From Lathyrus oleraceus (taxonomy: Eukaryota; Streptophyta; Magnoliopsida; Fabales; Fabaceae), in NCBI RefSeq assembly GCF_024323335.1, contig NC_066581.1:445185816-445249815 (forward strand): a stretch of DNA of 64,000 bases, in the 5' to 3' direction. Within the stretch, counting starts at the first letter, position 1, and every line of letters starts with the position of its first letter. Below the pieces are notes generated by a model. It did not search any database. It was not told the origin of the DNA and worked only from the letters and a program-made list of their open reading frames with translations. The position numbers and the translations under genes were made by a program. Below, one piece after another: positions 9,290-57,800 of this stretch.

Positions 9290-9445
9290 GCCTAGATTGC
9301 CCCAGGGTGATGTACTCAATCTAGCGGGATATATATTCATTTCTTTTCATGTCTCTAACTTTTTCCTGGATCGCCATTTCGGGTTTTCAATCCACCGAGA
9401 CGCTCATTTTTGCCTAAGTCGCCCTTTCGGGTTTTCAACTTAGCG
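9290..9445 (-). repeat. Three large-loop hairpins with variable stems after B pol
   Basis: Read on the + strand, units follow the pattern TTGCC, stem, CGCC.TTTCGGGTTTTCA-type loop, stem, CCGGGA-like. Stems are CTAGAT/ATCTAG (9292-9324), TGGAT/ATCCA (9367-9394) and CTAAGT/ACTTAG (9414-9443). Four matching units with other stems follow pol in element A (44849-45039). Confidence 0.65.
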
Positions 9446-35816: not shown

Positions 35817-36035
35817 TGTAGCGGTGTATTCGTCGCCATATGATTTATCAATTAAACCATAAGCAAAGCATACAATGAAATTTCGAGTCGCCACCGCACT
35901 TTTATTTATCCGAAGGACTGGCTAAAAAGCGAACAAAAGCCTAAGAAGTTTTACACGTAGAAAACTAATAAAAGATCAGAGATTCCAGGTAAGGGGTAAG
36001 TTACGCAATGGGAAGGTGTTAGGCACCCACTACGT

Positions 36036-36051
36036 CCTAGGTACTCCTAGG
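36036..36051 (-). promoter_or_regulatory. AGTA-loop hairpin, A 3' LTR
   Basis: The sense strand reads CCTAGG, AGTA, CCTAGG, with a 6-bp stem. Copy in the 5' LTR at 55107-55122. Homologous to 982-997 (B) and 19497-19512 (C) with different stems. Confidence 0.6.
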
Positions 36052-36159
36052 GAGCCCTTTTCACACTTGCTGTACTAAATTGTTATTCGTTATGACATAT
36101 ACATTGTGCAAACATGAGTGAGATGATGAGAAAAGAATGTACAAGTTTTATTGGGTTTG

Positions 36160-36218
36160 AGCGGATGAACCCGCTGCCTACGTACCTTCCATCAAAGGTA
36201 AGGATCAAAACGCCGTAG
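36160..36218 (-). promoter_or_regulatory. Three-helix RNA module, A 3' LTR
   Basis: Sense order: CTACG (36214-36218), GATCC, TACCTT/AAGGTA hairpin (36183-36200), CGTAG (36178-36182), GGC, AGCGG/CCGCT hairpin (36160-36175) with 6-nt loop. The P3 stem of B at the same place is AATGG/CCATT. Confidence 0.65.
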
Positions 36219-36789
36219 TTCGGCTAAAAGATTTCCAAAAGTGAGTTGGATTCAATTTTAAACAATAGCACTGAGGCTTTTCATTATCAATGGGAGAACA
36301 CTCGACCAAAACCAACATCCACCATGCGAGGATAGCTTCGACGTACGAGAGGGGTTAACCCTGTTTTCAGTACGGAAGTCTTACTGTCGACTCACTAAAG
36401 ATAAGGTGAGGTTTACATCAACCACAATGATAATTGAAACCTACGGCTAATGCATGAAAAGATTAATGGACATGGCCAAAACAAGTGAATGAGTAAAGTT
36501 AATTGATTGTGATTAAGAAAGTGAAGTCAGAGTATGATTAGGATTGATTCAGAGAAGTATTATGAAATGGAGTTTGAAAAAGTCAAGGACTTGAGTCCAG
36601 GTTTTTAATTTGAAAACATGAAGATGTTTGCACAACACTTATGTCAAATTTGAAAGGTATTGTGTGAAAAAGTCTAGGACATAATGAATGATGAATGGAT
36701 GGATATGGATTATAAAACTCCTTAGAAGGTTCACTTCTTGAGATCATATAGAGGATGATTCAAGGGTGTCCTTTGGAATGGAAAGTAAG

Positions 36790-37450
36790 TAATGATGAAA
36801 TAAACAAACAAATGATACCGGATGCCACTCAATGGTCTTACTCCAATCTCACAAACAAAAGCGGATATCGGATACCAATAGCTGGATTTACACCAATCTC
36901 CTAAAACAGACATGGATATCAGAGGCCACTCAATGGTCTTACACTAATCTCCCCAAAAGAAAAAGAAACGAGAATGGAATATGGAAATCAACTGCCAACT
37001 TGTGGGACTTAGGTTAACTCCCCACATGATCATAGGAAAGCAAATGCCAACTTGTGGGACTTACAATTGCATCCTCTCATAAACAAAGAAAACAAAACAA
37101 TAGATGTCAGATGCCAATCTATCTGGGCTTACTCTAACATACGCAGTATGATCCTAGGAAAACAAATGCCAACTCGTGGGTCTTACAATTGTATCCTCAC
37201 ACACAAACAAAGAAAGCAAAAACAGGGGTGTCAGATGCCAACTTGTGGGACTTACTCTAACACACAGTATGATCCTAGGAAAACAGATGCCAACTCGTGG
37301 GTCTTACAATTGTATCCTCACACACAAACAAAGAACAAGCAAAGATAAGATGAGTGGCCAACGTGATGGTCTTATACTCACTTCCATGTCATAGGAACAA
37401 ATGCCAACTTGTGGGACTTACAATTGTCCTCAATGGGTAAACAGCAACGA
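36790..37450 (-). repeat. Tandem repeat field inside A LTR
   Basis: Diverged units share GATGCCA.CT..TGG.CTTAC.C (36816, 36868, 36919) and then AAATGCCAACT.GTGGG.CTTACAATTG.ATCCTC (37041, 37164, 37284, 37400). Identical field at 55861-56521. It lies exactly between the B-like and C-like parts of this LTR. Confidence 0.75.
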
Positions 37451-40400
37451 TGGTGTCACACAGACAAAGGAAATGATCATGCATTAATGACAATTGATGA
37501 TGATAAATACATAACATACAAGCAAACAGATGCATATGAAGCACTCAAACAGTCAATGAGAATCAAAACAGCACACTCTATAGCCAAACAAGGGGGCTCA
37601 CACAAGAGGGTTTGACTATGAAAGTCCACTGTAATGGGTGAAGGTCGCTCTTAACCTTGCCATTGAGAGGCTAAGGTGAAGCAGATGAATAGGAGATGAG
37701 GGGTGTGCCTCATTGCTTCTATCCCTAATCAGGGAGAGCATCAAATAATAGAAAGTGGGGGAGCTCAGAAAGATGGAACTCTTTCCCCATTATTGACTCG
37801 ATTAGATCTTGGGTTTTTATCTCAATGCTTCAACCATGTGATGGGAGCAAGGAGAGGACACACTGAATAGTGGGGGATAGATTACTTATCCCTACCTTCC
37901 ACCAATTGCCTTACTTGAAGGACTTTTCCTGCTTGGGACAATTTTAAACACACACAAGCATTGCCTCTTAAGGAGGACTTCAGACAGTTTGCCCGGTCAA
38001 ATAACAGACCGGGTCTCCAGACTACATGAAGAAGAAGTAATTATACCTCAAAAGCAATTGCTAAATAGCAAAGCAAGCAAAAAGCAACTAAAGGGTACCT
38101 GAGAAAAACCAAACAAATCAGTATGCAATTAAACAGTTAAAACCAAAAGGGATGGATAAACAGTCAACCACAGAAGGTCAACTGTGCAAAGCAAGACTCA
38201 AACACATGAGTCAAACCATCTACAAAACAAAGGTTAGTTCATATGTAAACAAATCCAATCACATTTGTATGATCTCAATGGCAATGGTGCTTAACCTGAA
38301 ACAGGAACTCAATAGTAAGCACAAAAGACCACTAGGACTAGCCTAGGGTCAAGGATGAAAGAAAAAAAATCAAGGCAGCAAGGAAAAGTCAACCAAAACC
38401 AAAGTCAAACATTTGAGAAGCTATCACAATTGGGCCCACATCCAAATCATGCATTATGATCATTTCATGAACATTTGAAGTCAAAGTAAAGCAAAGGAAA
38501 GCACACAAAAGTCAACAGAATGACTTGCATCAAAAGTCAACCCAAACATTTTCAAAAATCATCAAATAAATCACACTCAATCCTAACATCTAACATGGTA
38601 TACATGTAAAATCTCATGGCATTTGGATGAGAGGAAGGCAGTCAATTAAAATCATGAAGTCAACATAATTTCAAGTAAGCACAATGAAAGTCAACAAACA
38701 TGGGTCAACTTCAAAAAATCATATCAATTTTAAAACAGATGAGAAATGGATGAGATTAACACCAATGCAAAGCTCAAGATGTCTAGTTATCACATATGAA
38801 GTTTCATGATCATACAATATGGTATGAGAATTTCCCAAATGATTTGGCAACATGTAGCACAAAAAGTCAACCATGGACTAGGCAGGGAAGAAAATTCACA
38901 ATCAAATGGAAAACAGCACAATCAATTCCAAGAAAAATCACACATGAACTAGACATATAAAGGATGGATCATGCAAAATTTGGGGTCATTTGGATGCAAG
39001 GAAGCATGTTAACAAAAATTGGGAAAATGCACATCATTCATGTAACACCAAATGTAACACTTAACTTCAGAAAATCATATCTCTCAATCCACAAATGATA
39101 AATGCACAAACTTTATATCAAAATGAAGGTGAGCATGTCTAGTTTTACCACAAAAAATTTCAAGACCAAAGGATGCAACATGAGTATTTCACAAAAGAAA
39201 TGGCAAGAGGTATCAATTTTTGTCACATTTCACAAACCCTAGAGCCAATTAATATCCAATGATCAGGAAAAATATTAAAAATCATGATAAAATTCTAGAC
39301 ATCCAACAGATCACAATGCAAAAAATCCCATAATTTTTGGAGTTGAAATGAATTAAAAATGGATTTTGGAAGTTGAGACATAATTAGAACAAAACATGAA
39401 CAAAAGCATGGCATGGCAAGTCAACTAAGTTGACCGAGTGGCACTCTTGTAAATACGCGCCTCATTAATCAAAACGCAGAGTTTTGGCAAATGCAATGAA
39501 ATGTTTTGATTGGCCACTAGCCAATGGAACAGTACAGCCTGCGAAAATTCCAACAACAACAGCCAAATGTATTCATGCTTCTAGGCAGGGTTTCATGTTC
39601 ATGCGACCTAGGGTTTTGGCTGTAACAAAGTGCATTCATCCTCATGTAATCACCATAAACAACATCAAATAAACAGCACGGCATCATAGCAAACAGCATC
39701 ATGCAACATTAGGCAACAGGGAAACAAGCATGATTCAAAGGAGACCTGGAAAATGTCCTAGGGTTTAAGCTACAGGGTTTAGCAGCATGGCAACTCATGT
39801 AACTAGGGTTTCTAACAGCAATCAACATGCATCTTCATCATTCATCATTCAATCATCAAAACATGAACAATAACATCAACAAATAAGCGTGGCCATGTAA
39901 CATCATCATTAAGCAACATCAGCCAATAGCAAAACAAACATCATCATGGGAAAATTCTGGAAATGCTAGGGTTTTAGCTACAGGGTTTATGCAACAACAA
40001 TCATGCATTCATCAGTTTCAAACATTCGTGCATAAAACATGAATAACAAAACGCATCCAGCATCACCAACCAAACCAGGCCTATGAAACACTATCATCAC
40101 ATAACATCAGCTAACAACAAAACAAACAACTAATCGAGTAAATTTCTGGGCAGGTATGAAGTTTATGAACAGGGTATCAACTTCATCATCATCATGAACT
40201 CAAAATTAAATCACCCAGAAATCCAAATTAAACAATGCAATACACTCAGTAAACATTGTACATTAAGAATCAAAGCATGGTTTCCCTTAAAACACTATAT
40301 CCATCATGAATCGAAGGCAAATGCATTCATACATCAAATTTCAAATCAGAAAATCTTCCAGCATACTCAACCATTTTCAACAATCTAAGGCTTAAAACAA

Positions 40401-42189
40401 CCATCAAAGAAGGACCTACATGACATATGGCATGATTTGGACAAACAAGGAAGTTGAAAAACTTACTTGAATTGAAGAACTCGATGGTACAGTGTCGTTT
40501 TGGTGGTTTTAAGCTGAAATAGAAGGAGATAATGCTTGGTAATGAAGGATCCTTGAGGTTGTTTGGCTCAATCTTGCTTGGAATTCTTCAAAGCTCTAAC
40601 TGCCATTTCATGTCCATGAAGAAAACAGAACAATAGGATGGTTGTGCTGGTGATGAATAATGCTTGAAATGAGCTTACAATGTCGGTTGGATGAAGAAAT
40701 AATGGGGGAATGCTCGGGTTCTTTGAAGGGTTTGGCAGAAAAATCTCAAAATGCCAAAATGCAAGAATGAGAGAGTGAGTGCTTTTGGTCTGTGGAGGCT
40801 GCGATTCCAGGGTTGCAAATGGCAGAAAAATGACTTTATATTATCTGTTTAAGGTCCTCTAATCAAATGGTAATCTTGCTTAGCTTAATGAAACCAAATT
40901 GCCAATTGCTAAGTTTGTGCATAAGTGAGTATGGAGGGTGTAAGCTGCACGAGCTGGGCCTTGAAATAGGCTGCAAAGGACCATTGCAAATGCTGTTTTT
41001 GGTCTGCTCCTGAATTGCTACATTGCCTTGCTTATTTCAAACCATTTTGCCATATTTGCACTTTTGCACCTTGGTCCAAAATGGTGGTATGATGATGGAA
41101 TGAGCATGAATTTAAGCTTGAGGCAAGTTTCAAATACCATTTAGAATGAATCCCCATTGGCCAATTGTGTAAAAAGTGTTTGAATCAAAAAGTCAAAGTT
41201 TGGTCAAACTTGATTTTTAAATGGAAAAGGTCAAAAAATGCCATTTTGATTGGCAAGGTTTTGGAGGGTGAAATTTATATTTTTGGAAAGAGGAGGAAAA
41301 ATGTGGTTTGTAGGAAAAAACCCCACCAAATTTGGCCTTATGGTTTGAGAGATATGCCCCTTTGAAGTTCACAAATTTTTGAAATTGAATTGATCATATC
41401 TTGACAACCATACATGGGATTTGAGAGTTCTTGGACTTTTTGAAAATGGGAGAACAAGATCTTCAACTTTAATGTTAGGCAAAAATTCATTTGAAGCTTG
41501 TATCATGATGCAAGTTGAGGATCAAGAAGTTTCCATTTTTGGCAGTTAAAATTACAGGTCCAGTTTCTATTTTTGGAAATTTTCTGATTGGCTTCAAATT
41601 CTTCAATGATGTTGATTACCATGATACATGAGGCCTATTAGGACATGAATAAGCTCTCTCAAACCATTTCCATCCATCAAAACCAAAGAATCAATCACAG
41701 TTGACCAACTTTGACTTTTCTAGGGTTTTGGACTGACTGTGCACTTCTGATGAATTCCAAACCCTAATTCCTTGAGAACTTGACTTCAAATGATGTCCCA
41801 AGTTGTATGAACTCTTGATTATTGACCATGGTGCCCAAATTCCACAAGAATGGCAACCATCCACTGCTTTGACTGACTGTTGACTGTCTAGGGTTTCTGA
41901 TTGTCTGTGTATGAACTGATGACCTTTGAGCCTTCAACCCTTGACTTGAACACTTCAAATGGACCTCCAAGTCATGTGAACTTGTTGGACAAACCCTAAG
42001 GCTTTGATTCCTTGAGAAACACCCTTGCTTGATTGGTGGATTGATCTCCTGATCAGTTTGACCTAATTCTTGGTTTGCTTGCTCTTGAGGCAACTGGGGA
42101 CAATGCAATGCTATGCAATGTATCATGATATGCTATGACCTAATATGAGAATGTATGTACAATGATAGGTGCAAATTTGAGGTGCTACA

Positions 42190-42201
42190 GCTGCCCCTAT
42201 T
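42190..42201 (-). other. Probable polypurine tract of element A
   Basis: The sense strand reads AATAGGGGCAGC directly before TGTAGCACC. It is short and not purely purine, but in the right place; B has AAATTAGGGCAT at the same place. Confidence 0.5.
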
Positions 42202-42322
42202 CAATCAGCTGGGAACCCGAACGGATGATAGCAATGGCTGTCAGACTTTCAGGGTAAACAGGGATTGAATACAAAAGAACCGTAGAAATTTGCACCGACT
42301 GGGTATGATACATGAGAACCAC

Positions 42323-43370
42323 GTCATTTACCGATGACAAACTGCATGACAGCTTCAGAAAAGCAAAACCATTTACCGATGGTTGGAAACTGGAAACTTG
42401 ATATTTACCGATATCAACTTCAGCGAGACCATTTACCGATGGCGGCTGGGGAAAACAAACTTCTGAAAAACAAAACCATTTACCGATGGTTAAAACTGGG
42501 ACTTTGATATTTACCGATATCAACTTCAGCACGACCATTTACCGATGGCGGCTGGGGAAACCACTTCTGAAAAGCGAAAACCATTTACCGATGGTTAAAA
42601 CTTGATATTTACCGATATCAACTTCAGCCAGACCATTTACCGATGGCTGCTGGGGAATAATTTGATGTAGGAAGGAAGCAAGACCATTTACCGATGGTGG
42701 CTTCAAAGTACACTTGACATTTACCGATGTCAACTTAGCAAGACCATTTACCGATGGCTGCTGAGAACTCGATATTTACCGATATCGAAGAAAACTGGGC
42801 CATTTACCGATGGCATCTCCGCTTGGGGAGGAACAAAATCTTTGTGGTGATACCAGACAAGACGTTTACTGACGACTTCTGGGGATTTTGATTTTATTGA
42901 CAAGAGAACAAAGAATGACCAGACATTTACCGATGACTGGGATGAGACTCGATGTTTACCGACATCGAAAGATGATGTTTACCGACATCAAAAAGAATGA
43001 CCAGACATTTACCGATGACTGGGGATGGGAAATTTATTGGTGAGAGACAAACAAAAGTTTGCAACTGAAAACCGGGTAGGACATTTACAGATGACTCTAC
43101 TGGGGATTTTTGTTGGGGATTAATCAGACATTTACCGATGACTGATGGAACGACTCGATGTTTACCGACACCGAAACAATGGCGTTTACCGACACCCAAA
43201 AAAGACCAGACATTTACCGATGACTGGGTGAGACTCGATGTTTACCGACATCGAAAGATGATGTTTACCGACATCAAAAAGAATGACCAGACATTTACCG
43301 ATGACTGGGTGAGACTCGATGTTTACCGACACCGAAGCAATGGCGTTTACCGACACCAAAAAATAAAACA
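42323..43370 (-). repeat. Array of about 30 mini-hairpins with TTACCG loop (A 3' UTR)
   Basis: On the + strand each unit has the loop TTACCG (TTACTG once, TTACAG once) between arms that pair: GTCAT/ATGAC (42323-42338), AACCAT/ATGGTT (42367-42384), TTGATAT/ATATCAA (42398-42417), TTGACAT/ATGTCAA (about 42712), TCGATAT/ATATCGA (about 42767), GCCAT/ATGGC (about 42798), CCAG.CAT/ATG.CTGG (about 42917, with an A-A mismatch), TCGATGT/ACATCGA (about 42947), TGATGT/ACATCA (about 42972). The flank differs from unit to unit but the two arms change together. The CAG.CAT, AACCAT and TTGATAT types recur. Later units (43155 on) have single mismatches. Confidence 0.85.
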
Positions 43371-43443
43371 CACGCGGGTGCTGACATGACACTTACTGGT
43401 ATCACAAGATCAAAACTGAGATATGTTAAGGCGAGACTGATCA

Positions 43444-44330
43444 CTTGCTGGGGGTCTCACTGGGGGAGAAACAAACTTTCTGTCACCATCGGGTGAGGAA
43501 ATAAACCTCTGTCACCATCGGGTGAGGAAATAAACCTCTGTGGGGATAACAATCCTGAATGCTGTCAAAGCAACTGTAGCTGATTTGCTGTGCTGATGTT
43601 GAATAAGGATGATCCGCCTCTGCCGGGGACACGATCTGATGGAGTTTCGAACACATGAATGCATATGTTTGAATTTTTCTATGGCGTAATGCTCCATATG
43701 GAATGGAAATGCTACGCAATTTGAGGATGCAATGATTACTATATGCAATGCAGTATGATGAGAACTCTGCGGGGAGAGATACACAGGATGACTGTGCTGA
43801 GGAATCTTCAAGATACTTCCACTGGGGGAGACAAATCAACTGCTGGGGATGGCCAACAATACAACTCCACTAGGGGAAGACAAGGCAACTCACTGGGGAG
43901 TAAGACAGCAACTCTGCTAGGGAAAACAACGGTAAACTGCTGGAGATAGTCCAATGAATCCACGAAAATTCCGCTTGGGGAAATAACCGCTCTGCTGAGG
44001 AAATAACCATTCCGCTGGGGAAGATAAACCAAGAAACTCTCTGGGGATAAGGCTCAGACAATCCTCAGATATGATGAACTCTGCTTCGGGGGATATCTGT
44101 TACTCCGCCGGGGACGACCCATACCATACAAGCAGAAACAACTCAGCTGGGGATGTAGGTATCCGTCTGCTATGAAAACTAGTCCAATCCACTGGTGGGA
44201 TGAACTCTGCTGGAGAAATAATTGCTTCGCTGGGGAAGGCTCAAACAAAACATAGCTAGGAGAATGATTCTGTCTGGGGAAAAGCACTGCTGGTGAATGC
44301 TCACAGGTGACGACCCTACTGGGGAAAATA
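43444..44330 (-). repeat. Dispersed primer-site-complementary motifs (A 3' UTR)
   Basis: About 18 degenerate copies of AACTCTGCTGGGGAA on the + strand, e.g. 43535, 43616, 43763, 43838, 43910, 43990, 44011, 44035, 44140, 44196, 44225 and 44317. The primer site on the same strand is TCCCCAGCAGAGTCGCCA (54864-54881), the reverse complement. In element RNA each copy resembles the 3' end of the primer tRNA and can pair with the primer site over up to 12 nt. Confidence 0.65.
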
Positions 44331-44848: not shown

Positions 44849-45039
44849 TGGATCGCCCTTTCGGGTTTTCAATCCACCGGGATACCCATTTTTGCCTAAG
44901 CCGCCCTTGCAGGTTTTCGACTTACCGGGTGTACAATTTTTTCATTTTTATCCCTAACTTTTGCCCGAACCTTTTCTTTCTGTTTTTGGTTCGCCGGGAT
45001 GCCCATTTTTGCCTGGACTCTTTTATTCTTTTTGTCCAG
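44849..45039 (-). repeat. Four large-loop hairpins with variable stems after A pol
   Basis: Written on the + strand: TGGAT/ATCCA (44849-44853/44872-44876), TAAG/CTTA (44897-44900/44921-44924), CGAACC/GGTTCG (44966-44971/44988-44993) and CTGGAC/GTCCAG (45013-45018/45034-45039). Each stem is preceded by TTTTGCC or a variant and followed by CCGGG; the first two loops share CGCCCTT.C.GGTTTTC. Three homologous units with other stems are at 9290-9445 in B. Confidence 0.7.
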
Positions 45040-45048: not shown

Positions 45049-48000
45049 TTACGCGAAGTATTTTTTGACTACATCTGAGTTGACAGGGGAAGGAAAATCT
45101 TCACCGTCCATAGTTGTAAGCATCAAGGCTCCACCAGAGAAGACCTTCTTCACAACATATGGTCCTTCGTAATTAGGAGTCCACTTGCCCCTGTTATCTG
45201 TACCGGGAGGAAGGATCCTCTTCAAAACTAGATCGCCAGTTTGAAATGTCCGAGGACGCACTTTCTGATCAAAGGCTCGCTTCATCCTTCTCTGATACAA
45301 CTGCCCATGGCAAACAGCTGCTAACCGTCTCTCTTCGATAAGGCTTAACTCATTAAACCTTGTACGAATCCACTCGGCTTCGTCCAGCTTGACATCCAAT
45401 AATACCCTCAGAGAAGGGATCTCCACCTCAACTGGTAGGACTGCTTCCATACCATACACAAGGGAGTAGGGGGTTGCTCCGGTCGACGTACATACAGAGG
45501 TACGGTATCCATGCAAAGCGAAAGGTAACATCTCATGCCAATCTTTGTACGTAACGACCATCTTCTGCACAATCTTCTTGATGTTCTTGTTTGCTGCCTC
45601 TACAACACCATTCATCTTTGGTCTGTAAGGAGAAGAATTGTGATGTTCAATCTTGAAATCTCTGCATAAGTCTTTCATCATTTTGTTGTTGAGATTCGAA
45701 CCATTGTCAGTGATGATTCTCTCAGGGACTCCATAACGACAGATGATTTCTTTCTTGATGAACCGGGCAACCACTTGTTTGGTGACGTTGGCATAGGAAG
45801 CTGCTTCCACCCATTTGGTGAAGTAATCAATCGCAACCAGGATGAAGCGATGTCCATTCGAAGCAGTTGGTTCAATCCTCCCAATCATATCAATGCCCCA
45901 CATGGCAAACGGCCAAGGCGAGTTCATGACATTCAACGGGCTTGGTGGTACATGTACCTTATCAGCATAGATTTGACATTTATGGCACTTCCGAGCATAT
46001 TTGAAGCAATCGGATTCCATAGTCATCCAATAATAACCGGCTCTCAGCAATTTCTTCGACATTGCATGACCACCAGCATGGGTACCAAACGAACCCTCGT
46101 GCACTTCTTGCATTAACATGTCTGCTTCGTGTCTATCCACGCATCTGAGCAAGACCATGTCAAAGTTCCGCTTATACAACACGTCATCCTGATTCAGATA
46201 AAAGCTTCCAGCCAGCCTTCTCAGGGTCTTCTTATCATTCTTCGACGCACCCTCCGGATACTCTTGAGTCTTGAGGAAGTTCTTGATGTCATAATACCAC
46301 GGCTTATCATCAATAGCATTAACAGACTCGGCTGCAAACACATATGCAGGCCTCTCGAGTCGATTCACAGCAACATGTGGCACCTGATTCCACCAATGAA
46401 CCTTTATCATGGAAGATAAAGTGGCCAAAGCATCAGCCATTTGATTCTCGTCCCGGGGGACATGATACAACTTCACCTTCTTGAAGAACGTCAGTATTCT
46501 TCTGGTGTAATCTCTGTACGGAATCAAATGCTGCTGATTTGTATTCCAATCTCCATTGACCTGATTGATCACTAGAGCAGAATCTCCAAATATGTCGAGT
46601 GTTTTGATCCTCAGATCAATGGCTTCTTCTATACCCATGATACAAGCCTCATACTCAGCTTCATTGTTGGTGACATCGAATGTCAATCTGGCAGAAAAAG
46701 GTATATGAGCACCTTTGGGATTGATTAGCACTGCTCCAATACCGTTACCGTTCATATTCACAGCCCCATCAAACATCAGTGTCCACTTGTCATCAGGATC
46801 CGGTCCCTCCTCAACAAGCGGCTCTTCACAGTCTTTCGTCTTTAGATACATGATGTCTTCATCAGGGAATTCAAACATCATTGGCTGATAATCATCGATT
46901 GGTTGTTCGGCAAGATAGTCTGACAGAATACTACCTTTGATGGCTTTCTGAGACGTGTACTGAATGTCATACTCGGTTAAGATCATCTGCCAACGGGCAA
47001 CACGTCCGGTGAGAGCTGGCTTCTCAAAGATGTATTTCACAGGATCCATCCTAGAAATCAACAGAGTAGTATGGTTCAACATATACTGCCTTAGTCGGCG
47101 AGCAGCCCAGGCCAAAGCACAGCAAGTTTTCTCGAGCAGTGAATATCTTGTTTCACAGTCGGTAAACTTTTTGCTTAGGTAGTATATGGCATGCTCTTTT
47201 CGACCAGACTCGTCATGCTGCCCCAATACACACCCCATTGAAGTCTCGGTGACTGATAGGTACATTATCAGTGGTCTCCCTGGAACTGGAGGAATCAGGA
47301 TTGGAGGTTTTTGTAAATATTCCTTGATTTTGTCAAAAGCTTTCTGACAGTCATCATTCCATTTGATCGCCTGATTCTTTCTGAGTAGTTTGAAAATTGG
47401 TTCACATGTAGCAGTTAGATGAGATATGAACCTAGCAATGTAGTTCAACCTCCCTAAAAACCCACGGACTTGCTTTTCCGTCTTTGGTTCAGGCATCTCT
47501 TGAATAGCTTTGACTTTAGCTGGATCTACCTCAATCCCTTTCTCACTGACAATGAAGCCTAAGAGCTTCCCGGATCTCACTCCAAACGTACACTTGTTCG
47601 GATTCAGCCTCAGTTTGAACTTGACCAGTCTGTCAAACAACTTCTGCAGATTAACCAGGTGCTCCTCTTCCGTCTGCGACTTCGCAATCATATCATCCAC
47701 GTACACTTCGATTTCGTTGTGCATCATGTCATGAAAGAGAGTCGTCATTGCCCTTTGATAGGTAGCACCGGCATTCTTCAGCCCAAATGGCATCACTTTG
47801 TAGCAGAACGTGCCCCAAGGTGTAATGAATGTCGTCTTTTCCATGTCCTCTGGCGCCATCTTGATCTGGTTGTAGCCTGAGAAACCGTCCATGAAAGAGA
47901 ATACCGAGGATTGAGCCGTATTATCCACCAATACATCAATGTGAGGTAATGGGAAATCATCTTTCGGACTCGCCCTGTTCAGATCCCGGTAGTCGACACA

Positions 48001-48519
48001 CATTCTGACTTTGCCATCCTTCTTCGGCACGGGAACAATGTTGGCAACCCACGGTGGGTAACTTGTAACAGCCAGGAAACCTGCGTCCCACTGCTTCTGA
48101 ACCTCTTCCTTGATCTTGACAGCCATATCAGGACTTGTTCTGCGAAGCTTCTGCTTGACTGACGGGCATTCTTCTCGAAGAGGTAACCGATGCACCACAA
48201 TGTCTGTATCCAGCCCAGGCATATCTTGGTATGACCAGGCGAATATTTCCACATATTCTTTCAGCATCTCAATTAACCTCCTCTTGACAGAGTCTTCTAA
48301 AGCAGCCCCAATCTTGATTTCTCTTCTGGCGTCCTCAGTACCCAGATTAACAACTTCCAACTCCTCCTGATGAGGTTGGATGATCCTTTCCTCTTGCTTC
48401 AGTAATCTGACCAATTCTGCAGGGAGTTCACAGTCTTCCTCACTCTCCTCTTCAGCTTGGTAGATGGGATTGTTGAAATCATACTGAGCCATAACAGAGT
48501 CGTTCACAGTGGATGCCAA
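45049..48519 (-). CDS. pol: Ogre A pol polyprotein (RT, two RNase H domains, integrase)
   Basis: Pol copies the element RNA into DNA and integrates it. The frame is open for 1156 codons. RT: VPVPKKDGKVRMCVDYRDLN, MPFGLKNAGATY, and the active site Y273-V-D-D. A Ty3-type RNase H follows (about 425-545: YYLSKKFTDCETRYSLLEK, but its first strand reads MYLSVTETS, without the usual Asp). A second RNase H has Asp584 (FDGAVN), the Glu of NNEAEYEA, FGDSALV and QMADALATL; two RNase H domains are typical of the Tat lineage. Integrase: a His pair in HEGSFGTH, CHKCQ, then Asp877, Asp938, Glu974 (35 residues apart) and a C-terminal GPYVVKK segment ending KKYFA. Codon 1 is TTG; the first ATG is at 48492. 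Pol is probably made after splicing from gag-pro. Confidence 0.95.
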   Translation of the reverse strand: MASTVNDSVMAQYDFNNPIYQAEEESEEDCELPAELVRLLKQEERIIQPHQEELEVVNLGTEDARREIKIGAALEDSVKRRLIEMLKEYVEIFAWSYQDMPGLDTDIVVHRLPLREECPSVKQKLRRTSPDMAVKIKEEVQKQWDAGFLAVTSYPPWVANIVPVPKKDGKVRMCVDYRDLNRASPKDDFPLPHIDVLVDNTAQSSVFSFMDGFSGYNQIKMAPEDMEKTTFITPWGTFCYKVMPFGLKNAGATYQRAMTTLFHDMMHNEIEVYVDDMIAKSQTEEEHLVNLQKLFDRLVKFKLRLNPNKCTFGVRSGKLLGFIVSEKGIEVDPAKVKAIQEMPEPKTEKQVRGFLGRLNYIARFISHLTATCEPIFKLLRKNQAIKWNDDCQKAFDKIKEYLQKPPILIPPVPGRPLIMYLSVTETSMGCVLGQHDESGRKEHAIYYLSKKFTDCETRYSLLEKTCCALAWAARRLRQYMLNHTTLLISRMDPVKYIFEKPALTGRVARWQMILTEYDIQYTSQKAIKGSILSDYLAEQPIDDYQPMMFEFPDEDIMYLKTKDCEEPLVEEGPDPDDKWTLMFDGAVNMNGNGIGAVLINPKGAHIPFSARLTFDVTNNEAEYEACIMGIEEAIDLRIKTLDIFGDSALVINQVNGDWNTNQQHLIPYRDYTRRILTFFKKVKLYHVPRDENQMADALATLSSMIKVHWWNQVPHVAVNRLERPAYVFAAESVNAIDDKPWYYDIKNFLKTQEYPEGASKNDKKTLRRLAGSFYLNQDDVLYKRNFDMVLLRCVDRHEADMLMQEVHEGSFGTHAGGHAMSKKLLRAGYYWMTMESDCFKYARKCHKCQIYADKVHVPPSPLNVMNSPWPFAMWGIDMIGRIEPTASNGHRFILVAIDYFTKWVEAASYANVTKQVVARFIKKEIICRYGVPERIITDNGSNLNNKMMKDLCRDFKIEHHNSSPYRPKMNGVVEAANKNIKKIVQKMVVTYKDWHEMLPFALHGYRTSVCTSTGATPYSLVYGMEAVLPVEVEIPSLRVLLDVKLDEAEWIRTRFNELSLIEERRLAAVCHGQLYQRRMKRAFDQKVRPRTFQTGDLVLKRILPPGTDNRGKWTPNYEGPYVVKKVFSGGALMLTTMDGEDFPSPVNSDVVKKYFA

Positions 48520-48776: not shown

Positions 48777-51700
48777 TTACTCTGTCAGTAGAGTAACTTG
48801 GACCACTTCTTCAGCCGTCCAATTGTTGATAACCTCGCCTGGTGCACAAGGGCGGACCCAGACATCCAAATCATGATCACTATCTTCACCATCAGTAGCA
48901 AAGACATCTCCATGGTTCATCAGCCCAGCGCTGGTGAAGGTGCTCGGACCTGCTTGTACATGCTGCTCTGCTTGGAGAGGCTCGTAACCAATGCCGAATT
49001 TGTCTTCTTTAACTGGCAAGTCAACCATCTTGCCCCAGCCTTCTGCTTTTCCAGAGTCAACCACCTCCTTAGCCTGCTTGTACGACGATATCGAAGCGCC
49101 CGGCTTCCTCTGCTCAGCACAAGCAACCCCTTCAAGCGCCACAGTCTCAAATGCCTGGCACAGGGTTTCGTGGATCTCGCCATCCACCTCAACATATTTG
49201 AATGAGGAGAGATGACTCACCAGAATCTCCTCTTCACCACAGACGGTCACGATCTGACCGTTCCAGACATATTTGAGCTTCTGATGGAGAGTCGACGAGA
49301 CCGCTCCAGCTGCATGAATCCACGGACGCCCCAACAGACAGCTATAAGCAGGCTGAATGTCCATCACATAGAAAACAATGTCGAACACTTCCGGACCTAT
49401 CTTCACCGGCAATGTGACTTCACCAAAGACAGAACGCTTGGATCCATCAAATGCACGAACTATCAGGTCACTGGGAGTGAGTACAACTCCCTCGACATCG
49501 ATCTTCTTTAGAATCTGTTTGGGCAGGACATTCAGGGACGACCCGGTGTCCACTAGCACGTGAGATAATACAGCACCCTTACACTCCATAGTGATGTGCA
49601 AGGCCTTGTTGTGATTGCGTCCCTCAGGCGTTAGGTCTAGGTCAGTGAAACCTACACCGTGCCTGGTGCTCACGTTGGCTAGTACACCCTCCAACTGGTT
49701 GACTGATATCTCTTGCGGGACGTATGCCATGTTCAGCATCTTTAGCAAGGCGTCCCGATGTGCCTCAGAACACATCAGCAAAGAGAGTATCGAGATCTTC
49801 GACGGAGTTTGATTGAGCTGATCTACAATCTTGTAGTCACTCTTCTTGATGATCTTCATGAACTCCTCAACATCTCTTTGAAAAGAACCCTCAGCCTCCT
49901 TCTGAGCCGGTTCTTCGTCAACCACTGCTTGCTTCCCCTTAGCCCTTGCAGATGCCTCAGCATTAGCATCCCTCAAAGGCTGAGGAGCAAACAGTCGTCC
50001 GCTCCTAGTGAAACCTCCTGGTCCTCCGACATTGTCCACTACCGGACTTGCAACAGCAGGAGTTCTCACCGGAGCACTGATTGTGACCGGAGCTTGCACA
50101 GCTGGTCTTGTTTGGTTACCAGCCCTCCTATCACGGCGATAGGCGTTGTCATAACTCCAGGGCACTGCTCTACTATTTTCAATTTGCCTTCTGCCAGGCG
50201 CAACAATAGTAGTTGGTGCACGGATGGTTACCGGAGTTGGAATGGTAACCGGAGTATTGTTTGTTGTGGGTGCACTGACAGCCCCTCTTCCTCGTCCTTC
50301 AGACGGCTTGTAAAAAATAGTGACAGTAGACACTGCCCCATTATCTCTAGTAGCCCGGCTGAACTGCAAACAGCCTTCGTCCATCAGCCTCTGAATACCA
50401 GTCTTCAACTGGTCACAACCGTTGATCGCTTCTGAACAGCCCACACAATCTTCTTGACAACCTGGGTCAACACCCCCCTTCAACAATCGGCCCTTGATTG
50501 TCAACAAAGAAGTCCGAACTTCATCAACATTCACAATCAAGTCTTCAACCTCCCCATCTTCAATATTGTTAACCCTATGCCCACCATGCTGAGGCATAGG
50601 ATTGTTCACCACATTCGGAACTGGAGAGAAGTTGATCGCCTTAGCATCGATCAAGTCCTGAACCTTATGTTGCAAAGCCCTACATCTTTCAATATGGTGG
50701 CCTGGTGCCCCAGAATGAAAATCACAACGGACATTTGCGTCATAGCCAGGAGGCAGCACTGTTGGAGTAGCCATCGTACGCAACTCTACAAACCCTAACC
50801 GGAGTAGTTCGGGTAGTAGCTCTACGTAAGACATAGGTAGAGGATCAAATCTTCTATCAGGATTCAACCTCTGTCTCTGCTGAGGCTGGAAAGGACGTTG
50901 TTGTTGTTGCTGCTGTTGTTGAGGTCGTTGCGGTTGTTGTTGAACTCTCTGTTGTTGTGGACGAGGTTGAGGTGCAGGAATAGTCACTGCAGCCACTAGA
51001 CGATACTGGTCCCTATTTGTATTGGCTCTGTACGCACTCCCTCTGTGCTGTACAGCATTGGTTTCTCCTTCTCTACGGCGAGGTGCCCCAGAGAAGGGTT
51101 TCTTTGAAGAAGATGAGGAACCAGCATCATGGATCCTCCCAGCCTTGATTAGACTCTCTGTTCTTTCGCCGCAGATAACGACGTCAGAAAAACTTCCGAA
51201 TGGGCAGCTTCCCATCCGGTCCATGTAAACACCTTGCAGAGTACTGATGAACATGTCAGTCAACTCCCTTTCCAGCATAGGGGGTTGAACTCTCGCAGCT
51301 AGTTCGCGCCATCTCTGGGCGTACTCTTTGAAACTTTCATTGTTTTTCTGGCAAAGACTCTGCAGCTGAGTCCTTGTTGGAGCCATGTCCATATTATGCT
51401 TATACTGCCTGAGGAACGCCTCACCCAGGTCTCTCCAGCATCTGATGGAATCCCGCTTCAACTCCATATACCAATCCAAGGACGCCCCAGATAGGCTGTC
51501 TTGGAAGAAATACATCCACATCTTCTCATCGTCTGTGTATGCGGATATCTTTCTGTAGTATGCCTGCACGTGGGTCCGAGGGCAGGAGGTACCGTTGTAT
51601 TTATCAAATGACGGCGCCTTGAATTTGTGCGGGATTCTCAGTCCTTCAACCAATCCCATGTTTGTAACATCAAAACCAAGGGAGTTTTGACATTCCATTG

Positions 51701-52124
51701 CCCTGATCTTCTCAGCAAGGGCCTCAACTTTGCGATCTCTCGCATCATTTCTACCCAAGATGTCGTCGTCTTCACTGAGCATAGTAAACAAATCCTCTTG
51801 TCTGTCAACAATAGGAATTCTGTTACGGGCTGGAACATGAATGGCTCTGGCACTAACAACATCCGGAGCAATCGGTTGACCGTCAACTCGGATACCCCTC
51901 AACTCTTCACCCACAGCATAATTGTTGACGGGAATAGCAGCAGCAGGGACCTCAGGAACTGGGTTTCCTTCTTGCAGAGGCTGGTTGGGCGGTGGCAATG
52001 CAGCTTCTTGCCTCTGAACCAGTGCTCGGAGCTCTTCTTGGCCTTGTGCAACCCCTTGCATCATATGAATGAACTGGGCCATGCTAGCCCTCATCTCAGC
52101 TAACTCGGCTTGAACCTGATCCAT
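48777..52124 (-). CDS. gag-pro: Ogre A gag-pro polyprotein (1115 aa)
   Basis: Gag shapes the particle and binds RNA; the protease cleaves the polyproteins. From the ATG at 52124: N-terminal helix (1-45), Pro-rich linker, gag core at about 180-290 (FKAPSFDKYNGT, WMYFFQDSLSGASLDWYMEL, FKEYAQRWRELAARV). A Gln-rich tract from CAA/CAG repeats lies at about 50890-50960, followed by a zinc-finger-like CDFHSGAPGHHIERC (C-X2-H-X5-H-X4-C). A second Cys-rich spot is CQEDCVGCSEAINGC. The aspartic protease has Asp859 in DTGSSLNVLPK, followed by IVRAFDGSKRSVFGEVTLPV and SCLLGRPWIHAAGAV. The frame is also open before the ATG and encodes HRYSTRLN, shared with C. The first 212 residues are nearly identical to element C. 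Confidence 0.95.
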   Translation of the reverse strand: MDQVQAELAEMRASMAQFIHMMQGVAQGQEELRALVQRQEAALPPPNQPLQEGNPVPEVPAAAIPVNNYAVGEELRGIRVDGQPIAPDVVSARAIHVPARNRIPIVDRQEDLFTMLSEDDDILGRNDARDRKVEALAEKIRAMECQNSLGFDVTNMGLVEGLRIPHKFKAPSFDKYNGTSCPRTHVQAYYRKISAYTDDEKMWMYFFQDSLSGASLDWYMELKRDSIRCWRDLGEAFLRQYKHNMDMAPTRTQLQSLCQKNNESFKEYAQRWRELAARVQPPMLERELTDMFISTLQGVYMDRMGSCPFGSFSDVVICGERTESLIKAGRIHDAGSSSSSKKPFSGAPRRREGETNAVQHRGSAYRANTNRDQYRLVAAVTIPAPQPRPQQQRVQQQPQRPQQQQQQQQRPFQPQQRQRLNPDRRFDPLPMSYVELLPELLRLGFVELRTMATPTVLPPGYDANVRCDFHSGAPGHHIERCRALQHKVQDLIDAKAINFSPVPNVVNNPMPQHGGHRVNNIEDGEVEDLIVNVDEVRTSLLTIKGRLLKGGVDPGCQEDCVGCSEAINGCDQLKTGIQRLMDEGCLQFSRATRDNGAVSTVTIFYKPSEGRGRGAVSAPTTNNTPVTIPTPVTIRAPTTIVAPGRRQIENSRAVPWSYDNAYRRDRRAGNQTRPAVQAPVTISAPVRTPAVASPVVDNVGGPGGFTRSGRLFAPQPLRDANAEASARAKGKQAVVDEEPAQKEAEGSFQRDVEEFMKIIKKSDYKIVDQLNQTPSKISILSLLMCSEAHRDALLKMLNMAYVPQEISVNQLEGVLANVSTRHGVGFTDLDLTPEGRNHNKALHITMECKGAVLSHVLVDTGSSLNVLPKQILKKIDVEGVVLTPSDLIVRAFDGSKRSVFGEVTLPVKIGPEVFDIVFYVMDIQPAYSCLLGRPWIHAAGAVSSTLHQKLKYVWNGQIVTVCGEEEILVSHLSSFKYVEVDGEIHETLCQAFETVALEGVACAEQRKPGASISSYKQAKEVVDSGKAEGWGKMVDLPVKEDKFGIGYEPLQAEQHVQAGPSTFTSAGLMNHGDVFATDGEDSDHDLDVWVRPCAPGEVINNWTAEEVVQVTLLTE

Positions 52125-52423: not shown

Positions 52424-53872
52424 CTATGGATCCCTAGAAGCTCGGGATGCTGGAAGACGGGAAGTGCACAACTTCTTGATCTCCCTCTCATAGGCAGCCT
52501 CCATGTCAGCTTTCTCTTTGGCAAGTCGATCATACTTCCTCTTCCAGAATTTGGATGACTGAGGAAGCAGAGAAGTCCAAGTGTCGTTCGGATCGTCGAT
52601 CACTCGGTGCTCGAGAAACTCAATCATAGCATCCTTCTCCTTGAGCTGCTGCAGCAATTCCTCCCTCTCACGGATCCAGGCACGCGAAAGGTCCTCCTCT
52701 CTCAACTCCTCTACACGTTGGGTAGGGAGGGTTGAAGGCCCAGCCACATCCAACGGTGTAGGTCTTGGATGATCGTATGGCATCAGGTAGGTGGCAGCTC
52801 TCTGCCTGACCCAGGAAGTGTATGGCTCCAAAGCAATGCAGTTCTTCGGACCCAACTCATTCCTACTCTTCTTACGGATACTGCGCCATGCACGGACAAA
52901 TCTGGCTTTCAGGCCTTGGGGATCTTTACCCTCCTGGAAAAACGCACCTTCTAACAGAATGTTATTAGGTTTATCTTTCAAGGGGAACCCAAGCTGACGT
53001 CGTGCAAGAATAGGATTGTAGGTAATCCCACCACATGTGCCAAGAAGAGGCACATTAGGGAATTCCCCACAATAGTCGATGATCTGAACGGTATCATACA
53101 CGCGATCATACCAGGTGATATCATCATTAGTGAGAGACATGAGTCTCTGAGACCACCGTAGACATCCCTTGTTCTCCTTGAAAGCGATTGTCTGCGGCAA
53201 GTGCGAAATAAACCACTTGTACAGCAGGGGTAAACAGCAGACAATAACTCCTCCATTCTTCATATTCCTCAAGTGCATGGAGAAATAAGCATCACCCAAC
53301 AAAGTCGGAACTGGATTAAGGACTGCAAAGATCCTAATAGCGTTCATGTCCACGAACTTGTCGAAGTTGGGGAACAGCACCAATCCATAGATGAGCAGCA
53401 CAAACAGAGCCTCAAAGGCGTCCTCACTCATGGCCTTCCCATAAAAGGTAGCTTGGGCAATGAGGAACTCGGAAGGAAAACCTTGAATTCCGCCTTTGGT
53501 AGTCAGATTAGCTCTAATCAGGTCTTCATCTATGTGCAACAAGCTGGAAATCTCTCGAGCAGATAGAATACTCTCTAGGCCACTGAACGGCACTTGATCC
53601 AGAATCGGAATCCCAATAAGGTGAGAGTATTCTTCCAAAGTCGGCAGTAGCAGGAAGTCCGGAAATAAGAAGCAACGATGCAACGGATCGTAGAACTGAG
53701 CCAAGGTACTCATCAACCCTTCGTCAACCTGAGTGGTGAGCAGAGGCAGAAGCTTCCCATAGCGAGCTTTGAAACCCAAGGGATCTAATACATATGATGT
53801 CAGATTCCTTAACCCTTTTACGTCGGGCTGCTTAAAGCTGTACTTCTTTGTATGCCTCTTTGGTCTTTCCAT
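52424..53872 (-). CDS. Ogre A ORF1 protein (482 aa), unknown function
   Basis: Intact ORF1. I take the ATG at 53872 (MERPKRHTKKYSF); the frame continues six codons upstream only by a TTG. It is colinear with ORF1 of B and E at high identity and with ORF1 of C only as scattered blocks (FYDPL..CF.F.D, PTLEEYS, NPVPTLLGDAY, CCLPLLYKWFISHLP). Residues about 20-370 look globular. The last 110 are rich in charged residues with heptad-like REELLQQLKEKDAMIEFLEH and FWKRKYDRLAKEKADMEAAY, so a coiled coil is likely. I know no catalytic motif in it. Its presence before gag is a hallmark of Ogre. In the frame sense it stands alone, about 300 nt before gag. Confidence 0.9.
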   Translation of the reverse strand: MERPKRHTKKYSFKQPDVKGLRNLTSYVLDPLGFKARYGKLLPLLTTQVDEGLMSTLAQFYDPLHRCFLFPDFLLLPTLEEYSHLIGIPILDQVPFSGLESILSAREISSLLHIDEDLIRANLTTKGGIQGFPSEFLIAQATFYGKAMSEDAFEALFVLLIYGLVLFPNFDKFVDMNAIRIFAVLNPVPTLLGDAYFSMHLRNMKNGGVIVCCLPLLYKWFISHLPQTIAFKENKGCLRWSQRLMSLTNDDITWYDRVYDTVQIIDYCGEFPNVPLLGTCGGITYNPILARRQLGFPLKDKPNNILLEGAFFQEGKDPQGLKARFVRAWRSIRKKSRNELGPKNCIALEPYTSWVRQRAATYLMPYDHPRPTPLDVAGPSTLPTQRVEELREEDLSRAWIREREELLQQLKEKDAMIEFLEHRVIDDPNDTWTSLLPQSSKFWKRKYDRLAKEKADMEAAYEREIKKLCTSRLPASRASRDP

Positions 53873-54863
53873 TGTCTGAAAATTTTGCAAAATAACCCTT
53901 TAAGTTCCTTGAAAATTTTCTTTTTCTGATGATGACATGTATGCGGATGAATGCATGAATGCATGAATGCAACAAACACACTCAAGGATCAAGCAAAGCA
54001 CACCAAGCAAAGGTCGTGGGAAAGCTCTATGTATCCCTAATATCAATCATCCATTTTGGTGGATTTAGGTTTTCACCTTATCGACACCCAAGTTCCATTG
54101 ATATTAACGGTACATGAACCGATTCAAACATCCCTAATATCAACCAGCCGCTTTGGTGGATTTTAGGTTTTGCACCTGATCCGGGATCCATTGATATTAA
54201 CGATGTTTGAACGACTCAACCACGAATCACGGGTTTGTTGAGAGTCACGAGCATGGAGTCTCGGTTAAGAACCACCCAAAAGGAGTGTACTAGGGTTTAA
54301 ACCTGCCAGACATGTTCTATCAGAGGTTCCCATAATCATCGTTCCTTCTTTCGAATATTATCGGAGGAACGAATACTCGTATTCCAAGAATATTCTCAAG
54401 AGAAACTCTTATGAGTGTAGTATCGCGTGACAATCGTATCAGAACTGACATCTGAACGACCTCCGCACTACGGTCCTAAAAATAGGCCAAGATGGGTTTG
54501 GTAAACTAAGGTCCTTGGCTTCTGCGGAACATGATTGAAAGAATAATGCCTAACCACAAATAACTTGTGTGACATTATTAGTTCAACATGACCTCCACCA
54601 AGTGAATGGACTCGCAAGTCAACTGGCTAAGGACTACTCCACACCAGTCAACAAGACTATGCCATTCTCCTATCCTAGAGTGCACTCGAGTTCGGGTACA
54701 GAACTCATCTCACAGACCACCAAAACAAACAGCATTGTATATCAAGCAAATCACGCATTACAATCAATACAGTGATCCCAAATTGTACAAGAATAAATCA
54801 AAACAAATAACAATATATCACAACAAAGGTGAAAAGTAGGCACTACCGCCAAGGAAACTAGTG
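53873..54863 (-). other. Leader of element A
   Basis: About 1 kb of untranslated sequence between primer site and ORF1, similar to the leader of B. It includes GCATGAATGCATGAATGCA (53952-53970), a duplicated inverted repeat (54038-54199), and a GAGTCTCGGTTAAGAACCACC block (about 54257). No coding capacity of note. Confidence 0.75.
54038..54199 (-). promoter_or_regulatory. Duplicated leader inverted repeat, A
   Basis: Copy 1: TAATATCAAT (54038-54047) with ATTGATATTA (54097-54106). Copy 2: TAATATCAA (54135-54143) with TTGATATTA (54191-54199). Both enclose a TTTGGTGGATT core. B has one copy (28711-28783), so A gained a tandem duplication of about 95 bp that later diverged between the arms. Confidence 0.65.
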
Positions 54864-54881
54864 TCCCCAGCAGAGTCGCCA
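54864..54881 (-). other. Primer-binding site of element A
   Basis: The sense strand reads TGGCGACTCTGCTGGGGA, 6 nt (GAAAAG) from the 5' LTR end; it is complementary to a tRNA-Arg-type 3' end as known for Ogre. Confidence 0.9.
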
Positions 54882-54887
54882 CTTTTC

Positions 54888-57800
54888 TGTAGCGGTGTAT
54901 TCGTCGCCATATGATTTATCAATTAAACCATAAGCAAAGCATACAATGAAATTTCGAGTCGCCACCGCACTTTTATTTATCCGAAGGACTGGCTAAAAAG
55001 CGAACAAAAGCCTAAGAAGTTTTACACGTAGAAAACTAATAAAAGATCAGAGATTCCAGGTAAGGGGTAAGTTACGCAATGGGAAGGTGTTAGGCACCCA
55101 CTACGTCCTAGGTACTCCTAGGGAGCCCTTTTCACACTTGCTGTACTAAATTGTTATTCGTTATGACATATACATTGTGCAAACATGAGTGAGATGATGA
55201 GAAAAGAATGTACAAGTTTTATTGGGTTTGAGCGGATGAACCCGCTGCCTACGTACCTTCCATCAAAGGTAAGGATCAAAACGCCGTAGTTCGGCTAAAA
55301 GATTTCCAAAAGTGAGTTGGATTCAATTTTAAACAATAGCACTGAGGCTTTTCATTATCAATGGGAGAACACTCGACCAAAACCAACATCCACCATGCGA
55401 GGATAGCTTCGACGTACGAGAGGGGTTAACCCTGTTTTCAGTACGGAAGTCTTACTGTCGACTCACTAAAGATAAGGTGAGGTTTACATCAACCACAATG
55501 ATAATTGAAACCTACGGCTAATGCATGAAAAGATTAATGGACATGGCCAAAACAAGTGAATGAGTAAAGTTAATTGATTGTGATTAAGAAAGTGAAGTCA
55601 GAGTATGATTAGGATTGATTCAGAGAAGTATTATGAAATGGAGTTTGAAAAAGTCAAGGACTTGAGTCCAGGTTTTTAATTTGAAAACATGAAGATGTTT
55701 GCACAACACTTATGTCAAATTTGAAAGGTATTGTATGAAAAAGTCTAGGACATAATGAATGATGAATGGATGGATATGGATTATAAAACTCCTTAGAAGG
55801 TTCATTTCTTGAGATCATATAGAGGATGATTCAAGGGTGTCCTTTGGAATGGAAAGTAAGTAATGATGAAATAAACAAACAAATGATACCGGATGCCACT
55901 CAATGGTCTTACTCCAATCTCACAAACAAAAGCGGATATCGGATACCAATAGCTGGATTTACACCAATCTCCTAAAACAGACATGGATATCAGAGGCCAC
56001 TCAATGGTCTTACACTAATCTCCCCAAAAGAAAAAGAAACGAGAATGGAATATGGAAATCAACTGCCAACTTGTGGGACTTAGGTTAACTCCCCACATGA
56101 TCATAGGAAAGCAAATGCCAACTTGTGGGACTTACAATTGCATCCTCTCATAAACAAAGAAAACAAAACAATAGATGTCAGATGCCAATCTATCTGGGCT
56201 TACTCTAACATACGCAGTATGATCCTAGGAAAACAAATGCCAACTCGTGGGTCTTACAATTGTATCCTCACACACAAACAAAGAAAGCAAAAACAGGGGT
56301 GTCAGATGCCAACTTGTGGGACTTACTCTAACACACAGTATGATCCTAGGAAAACAGATGCCAACTCGTGGGTCTTACAATTGTATCCTCACACACAAAC
56401 AAAGAACAAGCAAAGATAAGATGAGTGGCCAACGTGATGGTCTTATACTCACTTCCATGTCATAGGAACAAATGCCAACTTGTGGGACTTACAATTGTCC
56501 TCAATGGGTAAACAGCAACGATGGTGTCACACAGACAAAGGAAATGATCATGCATTAATGACAATTGATGATGATAAATACATAACATACAAGCAAACAG
56601 ATGCATATGAAGCACTCAAACAGTCAATGAGAATCAAAACAGCACACTCTATAGCCAAACAAGGGGGCTCACACAAGAGGGTTTGACTATGAAAGTCCAC
56701 TGTAATGGGTGAAGGTCGCTCTTAACCTTGCCATTGAGAGGCTAAGGTGAAGCAGATGAATAGGAGATGAGGGGTGTGCCTCATTGCTTCTATCCCTAAT
56801 CAGGGAGAGCATCAAATAATAGAAAGTGGGGGAGCTCAGAAAGATGGAACTCTTTCCCCATTATTGACTCGATTAGATCTTGGGTTTTTATCTCAATGCT
56901 TCAACCATGTGATGGGAGCAAGGAGAGGACACACTGAATAGTGGGGGATAGATTACTTATCCCTACCTTCCACCAATTGCCTTACTTGAAGGACTTTTCC
57001 TGCTTGGGACAATTTTAAACACACACAAGCATTGCCTCTTAAGGAGGACTTCAGACAGTTTGCCCGGTCAAATAACAGACCGGGTCTCCAGACTACATGA
57101 AGAAGAAGTAATTATACCTCAAAAGCAATTGCTAAATAGCAAAGCAAGCAAAAAGCAACTAAAGGGTACCTGAGAAAAACCAAACAAATCAGTATGCAAT
57201 TAAACAGTTAAAACCAAAAGGGATGGATAAACAGTCAACCACAGAAGGTCAACTGTGCAAAGCAAGACTCAAACACATGAGTCAAACCATCTACAAAACA
57301 AAGGTTAGTTCATATGTAAACAAATCCAATCACATTTGTATGATCTCAATGGCAATGGTGCTTAACCTGAAACAGGAACTCAATAGTAAGCACAAAAGAC
57401 CACTAGGACTAGCCTAGGGTCAAGGATGAAAGAAAAAAAATCAAGGCAGCAAGGAAAAGTCAACCAAAACCAAAGTCAAACATTTGAGAAGCTATCACAA
57501 TTGGGCCCACATCCAAATCATGCATTATGATCATTTCATGAACATTTGAAGTCAAAGTAAAGCAAAGGAAAGCACACAAAAGTCAACAGAATGACTTGCA
57601 TCAAAAGTCAACCCAAACATTTTCAAAAATCATCAAATAAATCACACTCAATCCTAACATCTAACATGGTATACATGTAAAATCTCATGGCATTTGGATG
57701 AGAGGAAGGCAGTCAATTAAAATCATGAAGTCAACATAATTTCAAGTAAGCACAATGAAAGTCAACAAACATGGGTCAACTTCAAAAAATCATATCAATT

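Follow-up and report, generated by a model that had tools for sequence, protein, structure and literature searches.

Retroviral packaging hairpins bound by Gag, and 3' export elements, combine conserved loops with changeable stems and act in cis in genomic RNA. Such structures are compact, occur as one or a few and have known ligands, whereas the array that concerns us here (array 1) consists of about 30 short hairpins with a candidate ligand only. In plants, Ogre-like elements are abundant in some genomes, and the repeats of their 3' UTRs give rise to satellite DNA (PMC7004042; papers cited by PMC number are cited for the portions available to us). The hypervariable repeats of Ogre/Tat 3' UTRs resemble array 1 in their place between pol and the 3' LTR, in their tandem units and in their high variability (PMC7004042; PMC11963269). 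In the available portions of these papers, however, they figure as repeats and as seeds of satellites; hairpins with a constant loop and matched stems go unmentioned there, and the word "hairpin" is absent. Among the papers listed on Ogre and hairpins, 3' UTRs and their hypervariability, satellites, RNA structure and the primer-binding site (PBS), titles and opening lines of abstracts mentioned neither such hairpins nor antisense PBS copies, and the papers listed for the letters of the motif dealt with unrelated subjects; absence from print is not thereby established, as the main paper on these UTRs (Macas et al. 2009) was not covered. Ogre 3' UTRs have so far been described only as hypervariable, as far as the available text goes (PMC7004042). 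If the repeats are selected hairpins, this variability would be a turnover of stems around conserved loops, and it would help to show how the RNA of such elements is packaged or exported and why their UTRs keep forming tandem arrays. Antisense copies of the primer site pose a second question, namely how the two ends of a plant element's RNA come together.

The window, the whole 64,000-nucleotide stretch of Lathyrus oleraceus DNA that was analysed, contains several Ogre-like copies that are nested together and lie in both orientations; related pieces of LTR, ORF1 and pol occur at 769-1691, 14097-19699, 24977-30524 and 61726-64000. No tRNA genes were found in these 64 kb. The sample consists of one young element and one older relative, both inside the window. 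The young one, element A, is an intact, minus-strand, Ogre-like LTR retrotransposon that houses array 1 between pol and the 3' LTR:

35812-35816 and 61261-61265, both flanks: target-site duplication GTATG of element A, read by eye
35817..42189, minus strand: 3' LTR of element A
42318..43408, minus strand: array 1, 31 hairpins whose stems, about 5-7 bp long, vary by matched changes
45049..48519, minus strand: ORF of element A for RT, RNase H, second RNase H and integrase
48777..52124, minus strand: gag-protease ORF of element A
52424..53890, minus strand: ORF1 of element A, with DUF7745 (PF24924)
54888..61260, minus strand: 5' LTR of element A

The two LTRs of element A differ at two sites only. 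Pfam domains in the pol ORF are RT_RNaseH (413-517), RVT_3 (583-700) and rve (870-967), and the second RNase H is thus located between RNase H and integrase, as in Ogre; this trait is common to Retand too (PMC6317226). The gag-protease and RT-RH-INT ORFs are separated by 257 bp (48520-48776), close to the gap of about 274 bp that splits the polyprotein ORFs of Ogre (PMC6317226). Ogre also has an extra ORF before gag, and the plant mobile domain pfam10536 is found in 57% of Ogre elements (PMC6317226). In element A, ORF1 precedes gag and matches DUF7745 (PF24924), with no PF10536 at E values up to 0.001. Tandem repeats are present between pol and the 3' LTR, again as in Ogre. On account of the second RNase H and the 257-bp ORF gap, element A fits Ogre as described in the available portions of PMC6317226. 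The sequence-only reading had assigned the hairpins to a young Ogre and its 3' UTR, and the nearly identical LTRs and the encoded domains bear this out for an Ogre-like element; its remark that Ogre 3' UTRs are repeat-rich and can seed satellites agrees with what is available of PMC7004042.

Because array 1 lies between pol and the 3' LTR of a minus-strand element, its loop reads CGGUAA in sense RNA. We took as units all hexamers on the plus strand of 42190-43420 with at most one mismatch to TTACCG, which gave 28 exact loops and three with one mismatch (42866, 43085 and 43393). The sense loops are accordingly CGGUAA (28), CAGUAA (2, at 42866 and 43393) and CUGUAA (1). The position first given for the array and its count of about 30 constant-loop hairpins hold with these 31 loops. 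That every unit has the same loop is correct for 28 of the 31 but not for the three one-mismatch loops, and TTATTG, at 42894 and 43034, has no stem.

Pairing was counted at seven stem positions, with sense-strand G.U taken as paired, and compared with arms that had been re-dealt. Among 27 distinct rows, 163 of 189 cells were paired, against a permuted mean of 125.0 (sd 5.5, maximum 145; 5000 permutations); with the exact-loop rows only (n = 24) the count was 145 of 168 against a mean of 112.2 (maximum 132; 5000 permutations). Two-sided changes were found at all seven stem pairs, and 50 cells carried such a change; shuffling gave 20.0, and slid registers gave no more than 24. Further pair types showed no excess in array 1 (16 versus 16.8 shuffled, with 417 of 500 shuffles as high). 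Perfect hairpins with stems of 6 bp or more numbered 12, against a mean of 1.3 and a maximum of 6 in 300 dinucleotide shuffles, and a loop scan of the window (1,577 repeated 4-8-mers) placed TTACCG at the top, tied with the overlapping TTTACCGA (z 6.1). The proposal that pairing is preserved through two-sided changes, and in excess of dinucleotide-shuffled sequence, is therefore upheld. The arms had also been described as mutual reverse complements: in the inner five positions of the 20 distinct arm pairs (n = 100 cells) this is true of the 90 Watson-Crick cells, the others being 7 sense G.U and 3 mismatched. Permutation and slid-register controls, rather than phylogeny-aware ones, were exceeded by arrays 1 and 2 on most measures and by array 3 on three of five. 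Between 42150 and 45100 the single Rfam match up to E 1 was GlsR7 (E 0.5, 18.9 bits versus a gathering score of 75), that is, no family match.

Two simple ideas about array 1 were abandoned. A coding origin was set aside, the longest overlapping ORF having 113 codons (ORFs of at least 50 codons were listed). Kissing of CGGUAA with UUACCG was dropped, as sense UUACCG occurs at two window sites only, 43930 and 47160.

Many units of array 1 belong to tandem repeats about 106 or 81 bp long, so that the 31 units are not 31 independent observations; 20 distinct arm pairs are left. In hand-chosen, well-aligned segments of the tandem copies, all with exact loops, differences were found at 0 of 240 loop sites (0/108 and 0/132 in the two families), 42 of 560 stem sites (23/252 and 19/308) and 123 of 363 spacer sites (95/238 and 28/125, gap cells set aside). 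Divergence between tandem copies is thus lowest in the loop, higher in the stem and highest in the spacer. The constancy of the loop partly reflects these choices, because the loop served to define the units and the more strongly decayed sequence between the segments was excluded. On the plus strand, related units show matched steps: TTGATAT/ATATCAA at 42511 and TTGACAT/ATGTCAA at 42721 differ by a matched double change at pair 3, and further steps are seen in TCGATAT/ATATCGA (42776) and TCGATGT/ACATCGA (42956). In TCGATGT/ACACCGA, at 43162, the odd pair is G.U in sense. The order of descent among these units is our own reading.

The same design recurs in the older relative, element B, which is also Ogre-like. 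Its pol (9461-12809) is 72% identical to that of element A, and its 3' LTR probably spans 769 to about 5667. Hairpins of a further kind, array 3, directly follow pol in both elements:

6152..7139, minus strand: array 2 of element B, with nine hairpins in its 3' UTR whose sense loop is YAGUARCC and whose inner stem is ACC/GGU
9292..9443, minus strand: array 3 of element B, three hairpins directly after pol
44849..45039, minus strand: array 3 of element A, four hairpins directly after the pol stop (45049)

Array 2 is placed near the 3' LTR of element B, matching the place of array 1 in element A. Its outer stems differ among units yet pair, in 76.4% of cells versus 64.0 shuffled (0 of 500 as high). 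When units were chosen by loop letters alone, a test that excluded the unit at 7104, which had been picked by eye, 48 of 64 cells were paired versus 40.4, with 5 of 5000 permutations as high. In the scan of 1,577 repeated 4-8-mers, array 2 came ninth (z 3.0). A C(R)GUAA-like loop is common to elements A (the CAGUAA units) and B (YAGUARCC). Since the same design comes with other loops elsewhere, a single ligand that reads the loop cannot account for every array, even though C(R)GUAA-like loops are common to two families.

Array 3, unlike array 1, has no constant loop. Its stems are UGGAU/AUCCA, UAAG/CUUA, CGAACC/GGUUCG and CUGGAC/GUCCAG in element A, and CUAGAUUG/CAAUCUAG, UGGAU/AUCCA and CUAAGU/ACUUAG in element B; the near flanks of the units are CCCGG and GGCAAAA. 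Of the seven units, four show a GNRA-like apex on the sense strand, which reads GAAA in three and GCAA in one and has an unpaired closing base in one case; two of these are among the four units of element A, and the loops of the remaining three units differ. In the outer helix 89.8% of cells are paired, and the covariation score was 0.567 versus 0.323 shuffled (0 of 500 as high). No excess was seen in array 3 for pairs with two-sided change (5 versus 3.8 shuffled, 135 of 500 as high) or for further pair types (9 versus 11.0, 490 of 500 as high), and the small inner helix is paired in 65% of cells only. Divergence is about equal in stem (0.47), loop (0.42) and wider left flank (0.46), as against 0.12 and 0.16 in the near flanks.

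Which strand folds was judged from wobble pairs and from energy. At inner pairs, rows with departures that are G.U in sense outnumbered those that are G.U in antisense by 7:0 in array 1, 3:1 in array 2 and 4:0 in array 3; over all positions the ratios were 10:3 (array 1) and 6:2 (array 2). Merging the rows by hand into independent events leaves an inner count of about 9:1, for which hand arithmetic gives P of about 0.01 at equal chance and about 0.06 at a sense share of 0.6, the share that shuffled arms already give. MFE z-scores of array 1 (150-base windows, 60 shuffles each) ranged from -0.4 to -2.0 in sense and from -1.6 to -4.1 in antisense, and the mean pair probability was 0.65 and 0.74, respectively. 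Relative to shuffled controls, array 1 folds more weakly in sense than in antisense; array 3 of element A showed no energy excess in sense (z 0.2). The evidence conflicts, wobble pairs pointing to the sense and folding energy to the antisense strand. We consider sense RNA the likelier, rather than the demonstrated, acting strand.

We would give an even chance to the reading that array 1 consists of short sense-RNA hairpins kept by selection and forming a candidate multi-site platform for a protein. Units would have been multiplied by tandem duplication first; selection at the RNA level would then have held the loop letters and the pairing, while the stem letters drifted in matched steps, some of them through G.U. 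The loops may be repeated binding sites, most probably for the element's Gag, in packaging or assembly, or else for a host factor acting, for example, in the export of only partly spliced RNA; we propose the latter because Ogre RNA is spliced only in part, according to the available portions of PMC6317226. Many copies of the hairpin would confer avidity. Independent changes in the arrays are few, which counts against this reading. What the sequence shows is the excess of hairpins, their matched changes, the graded divergence of loop, stem and spacer, and the recurrence of the design in element B; the RNA level, the selection, the ligand and the function are inferred. The main rival, which we consider unlikely, is that switches of template from arm to arm, in the course of reverse transcription or replication, copied changes from one arm to the other and so produced complementarity without function. 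Template switching creates and maintains hairpins and yields multi-base compensatory changes, and the hairpins so described resemble ours in the matched changes of their arms and the little change of their loops (PMC8794818, as available); it would also readily explain why several arrays share one design although their loops are unrelated. It homogenises arms and inverts spacers (PMC8604942, as available). It predicts fast arms and some inverted loops; here, in contrast, the arms vary less than the spacers and the loop varies least, a comparison qualified by the hand choice of segments. Inverted loops are absent, with 28 TTACCG to 0 CGGTAA within 42190-43420 and 8:0 in array 2, though switching within a strand need not invert. 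Nor would DNA-level switching predict G.U departures that lean to the sense strand. The calmer stems and the absence of inverted loops lead us to favour selection over template switching.

That the hairpins act in antisense or in DNA, as antisense RNA, single-stranded minus cDNA or cruciforms that promote duplication, appears improbable. The lower folding energy and higher pair probability of the antisense strand of array 1 speak for it, whereas the inner departures would be A.C on that strand in the 7:0, 3:1 and 4:0 rows, and the GNRA-like apices of array 3 are on the sense strand. That a handful of chance hairpins were simply duplicated in tandem and not maintained afterwards is already disfavoured and in our view very improbable, even if many units belong to two tandem families and the hypervariable tandem repeats of Ogre 3' UTRs are known to seed satellites (PMC7004042, as available). 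Units 42511 and 42721 are related and yet show their matched double change, and stems go on pairing as spacers diverge.

The 3' UTRs of both elements also hold a motif antisense to the primer-binding site, which was noticed before the comparison with the PBS was made:

54863..54881, minus strand: PBS of element A, sense TGGCGACTCTGCTGGGGAC, six bases inward of the end of the 5' LTR
42203..44325, plus strand, antisense to the element: 18 degenerate copies (up to 3 mismatches) of the PBS 13-mer ACTCTGCTGGGGA in the 3' UTR of element A
5919-8866: 19 degenerate antisense copies of ACTCTGCTGGGGA in the 3' UTR of element B

In 60 shuffles the mean was 0.67 copies for element A and 0.77 for element B (maximum 3 in each), and copies of ACTCTGCTGGGGA in sense orientation numbered 0 in either 3' UTR. 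In five control regions each strand had 0-2 copies, of which one is the PBS itself. When 13-mers were slid across 180 bases around the PBS, the count peaked at ACTCTGCTGGGGA, with 37 in both UTRs and a median of 1; 1,816 random 13-mers of the window had at most 17 copies, the top one being a poly-A word. In sense, these 3' UTR stretches resemble the 3' portion of the primer tRNA minus its terminal CGCCA and could pair with the PBS. G.U-compatible changes in the antisense copies were not in significant excess (38/296 versus 16/185, P = 0.18), and pairing with the PBS is therefore not supported by selection. The copies may tie the RNA ends together, or they may be relics of tRNA copying. The bipartite 5'-3' PBS of Ty3 is similar in that primer-related sequence lies at the 3' end of the genomic RNA; in Ty3, however, the 3' segment binds the tRNA, whereas the 18-19 degenerate copies found here are tRNA-like and would pair with the PBS (PMC5371799 and PMC11381356, as available). 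With the one PBS 13-mer used, all copies were antisense, and a Ty3-type 3' segment complementary to the primer tRNA was not found.

A wider reading, doubtful at present, is that the Ogre 3' UTR as a whole works as an RNA device built of modules. Arrays of covarying hairpins would bind protein at many sites, and about 18 PBS-complementary stretches interleaved with them would tie the 3' to the 5' end for primer placement or for the first strand transfer. The stems would diversify and so avoid pairing with their neighbours, and the hypervariable repeats that seed satellites would arise as by-products of this selected device.

No strong unit other than those used to build them was retrieved with models of the three arrays; one array 3 unit, at 45014-45058, scored only E 0.16 in this search, behind two unrelated places at 0.14. 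The pol protein of element A had no match in viral contigs. A paired-loop pattern occurred in at least 120 stretches of viral contigs and at least 118 of genome contigs, and a GNRA-hairpin pattern had 14 matches in viral contigs, with unrelated flanks; both sets look like chance matches. Among the matches listed, two of 252 pattern-matched loci held TTTACCGA five or more times on one strand (5 and 6 copies).

Several other features of the window are recorded here as minor observations. The stretch 42151-42300, which comprises the 3' LTR border and the polypurine tract, had the lowest folding z among the windows tried (-4.8 sense, -4.7 antisense). A 29-bp repeat at 43479-43541, with 2.2 identical copies, carries a different small hairpin, TCACC-ATCG-GGTGA. 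Finally, a 39-bp tandem hairpin repeat is found at 30019-30160 and 62447-62588, in the presumed leader of another Ogre-like copy. Around similar loops it has the stems CACTCT/AGAGTG, ACTTGATC/GATCAAGT, TCTTGATC/GATCAAGA and TCTTGATT/AATCAAGA, with matched differences of the form CTTGAT(C/T)/(G/A)ATCAAG.
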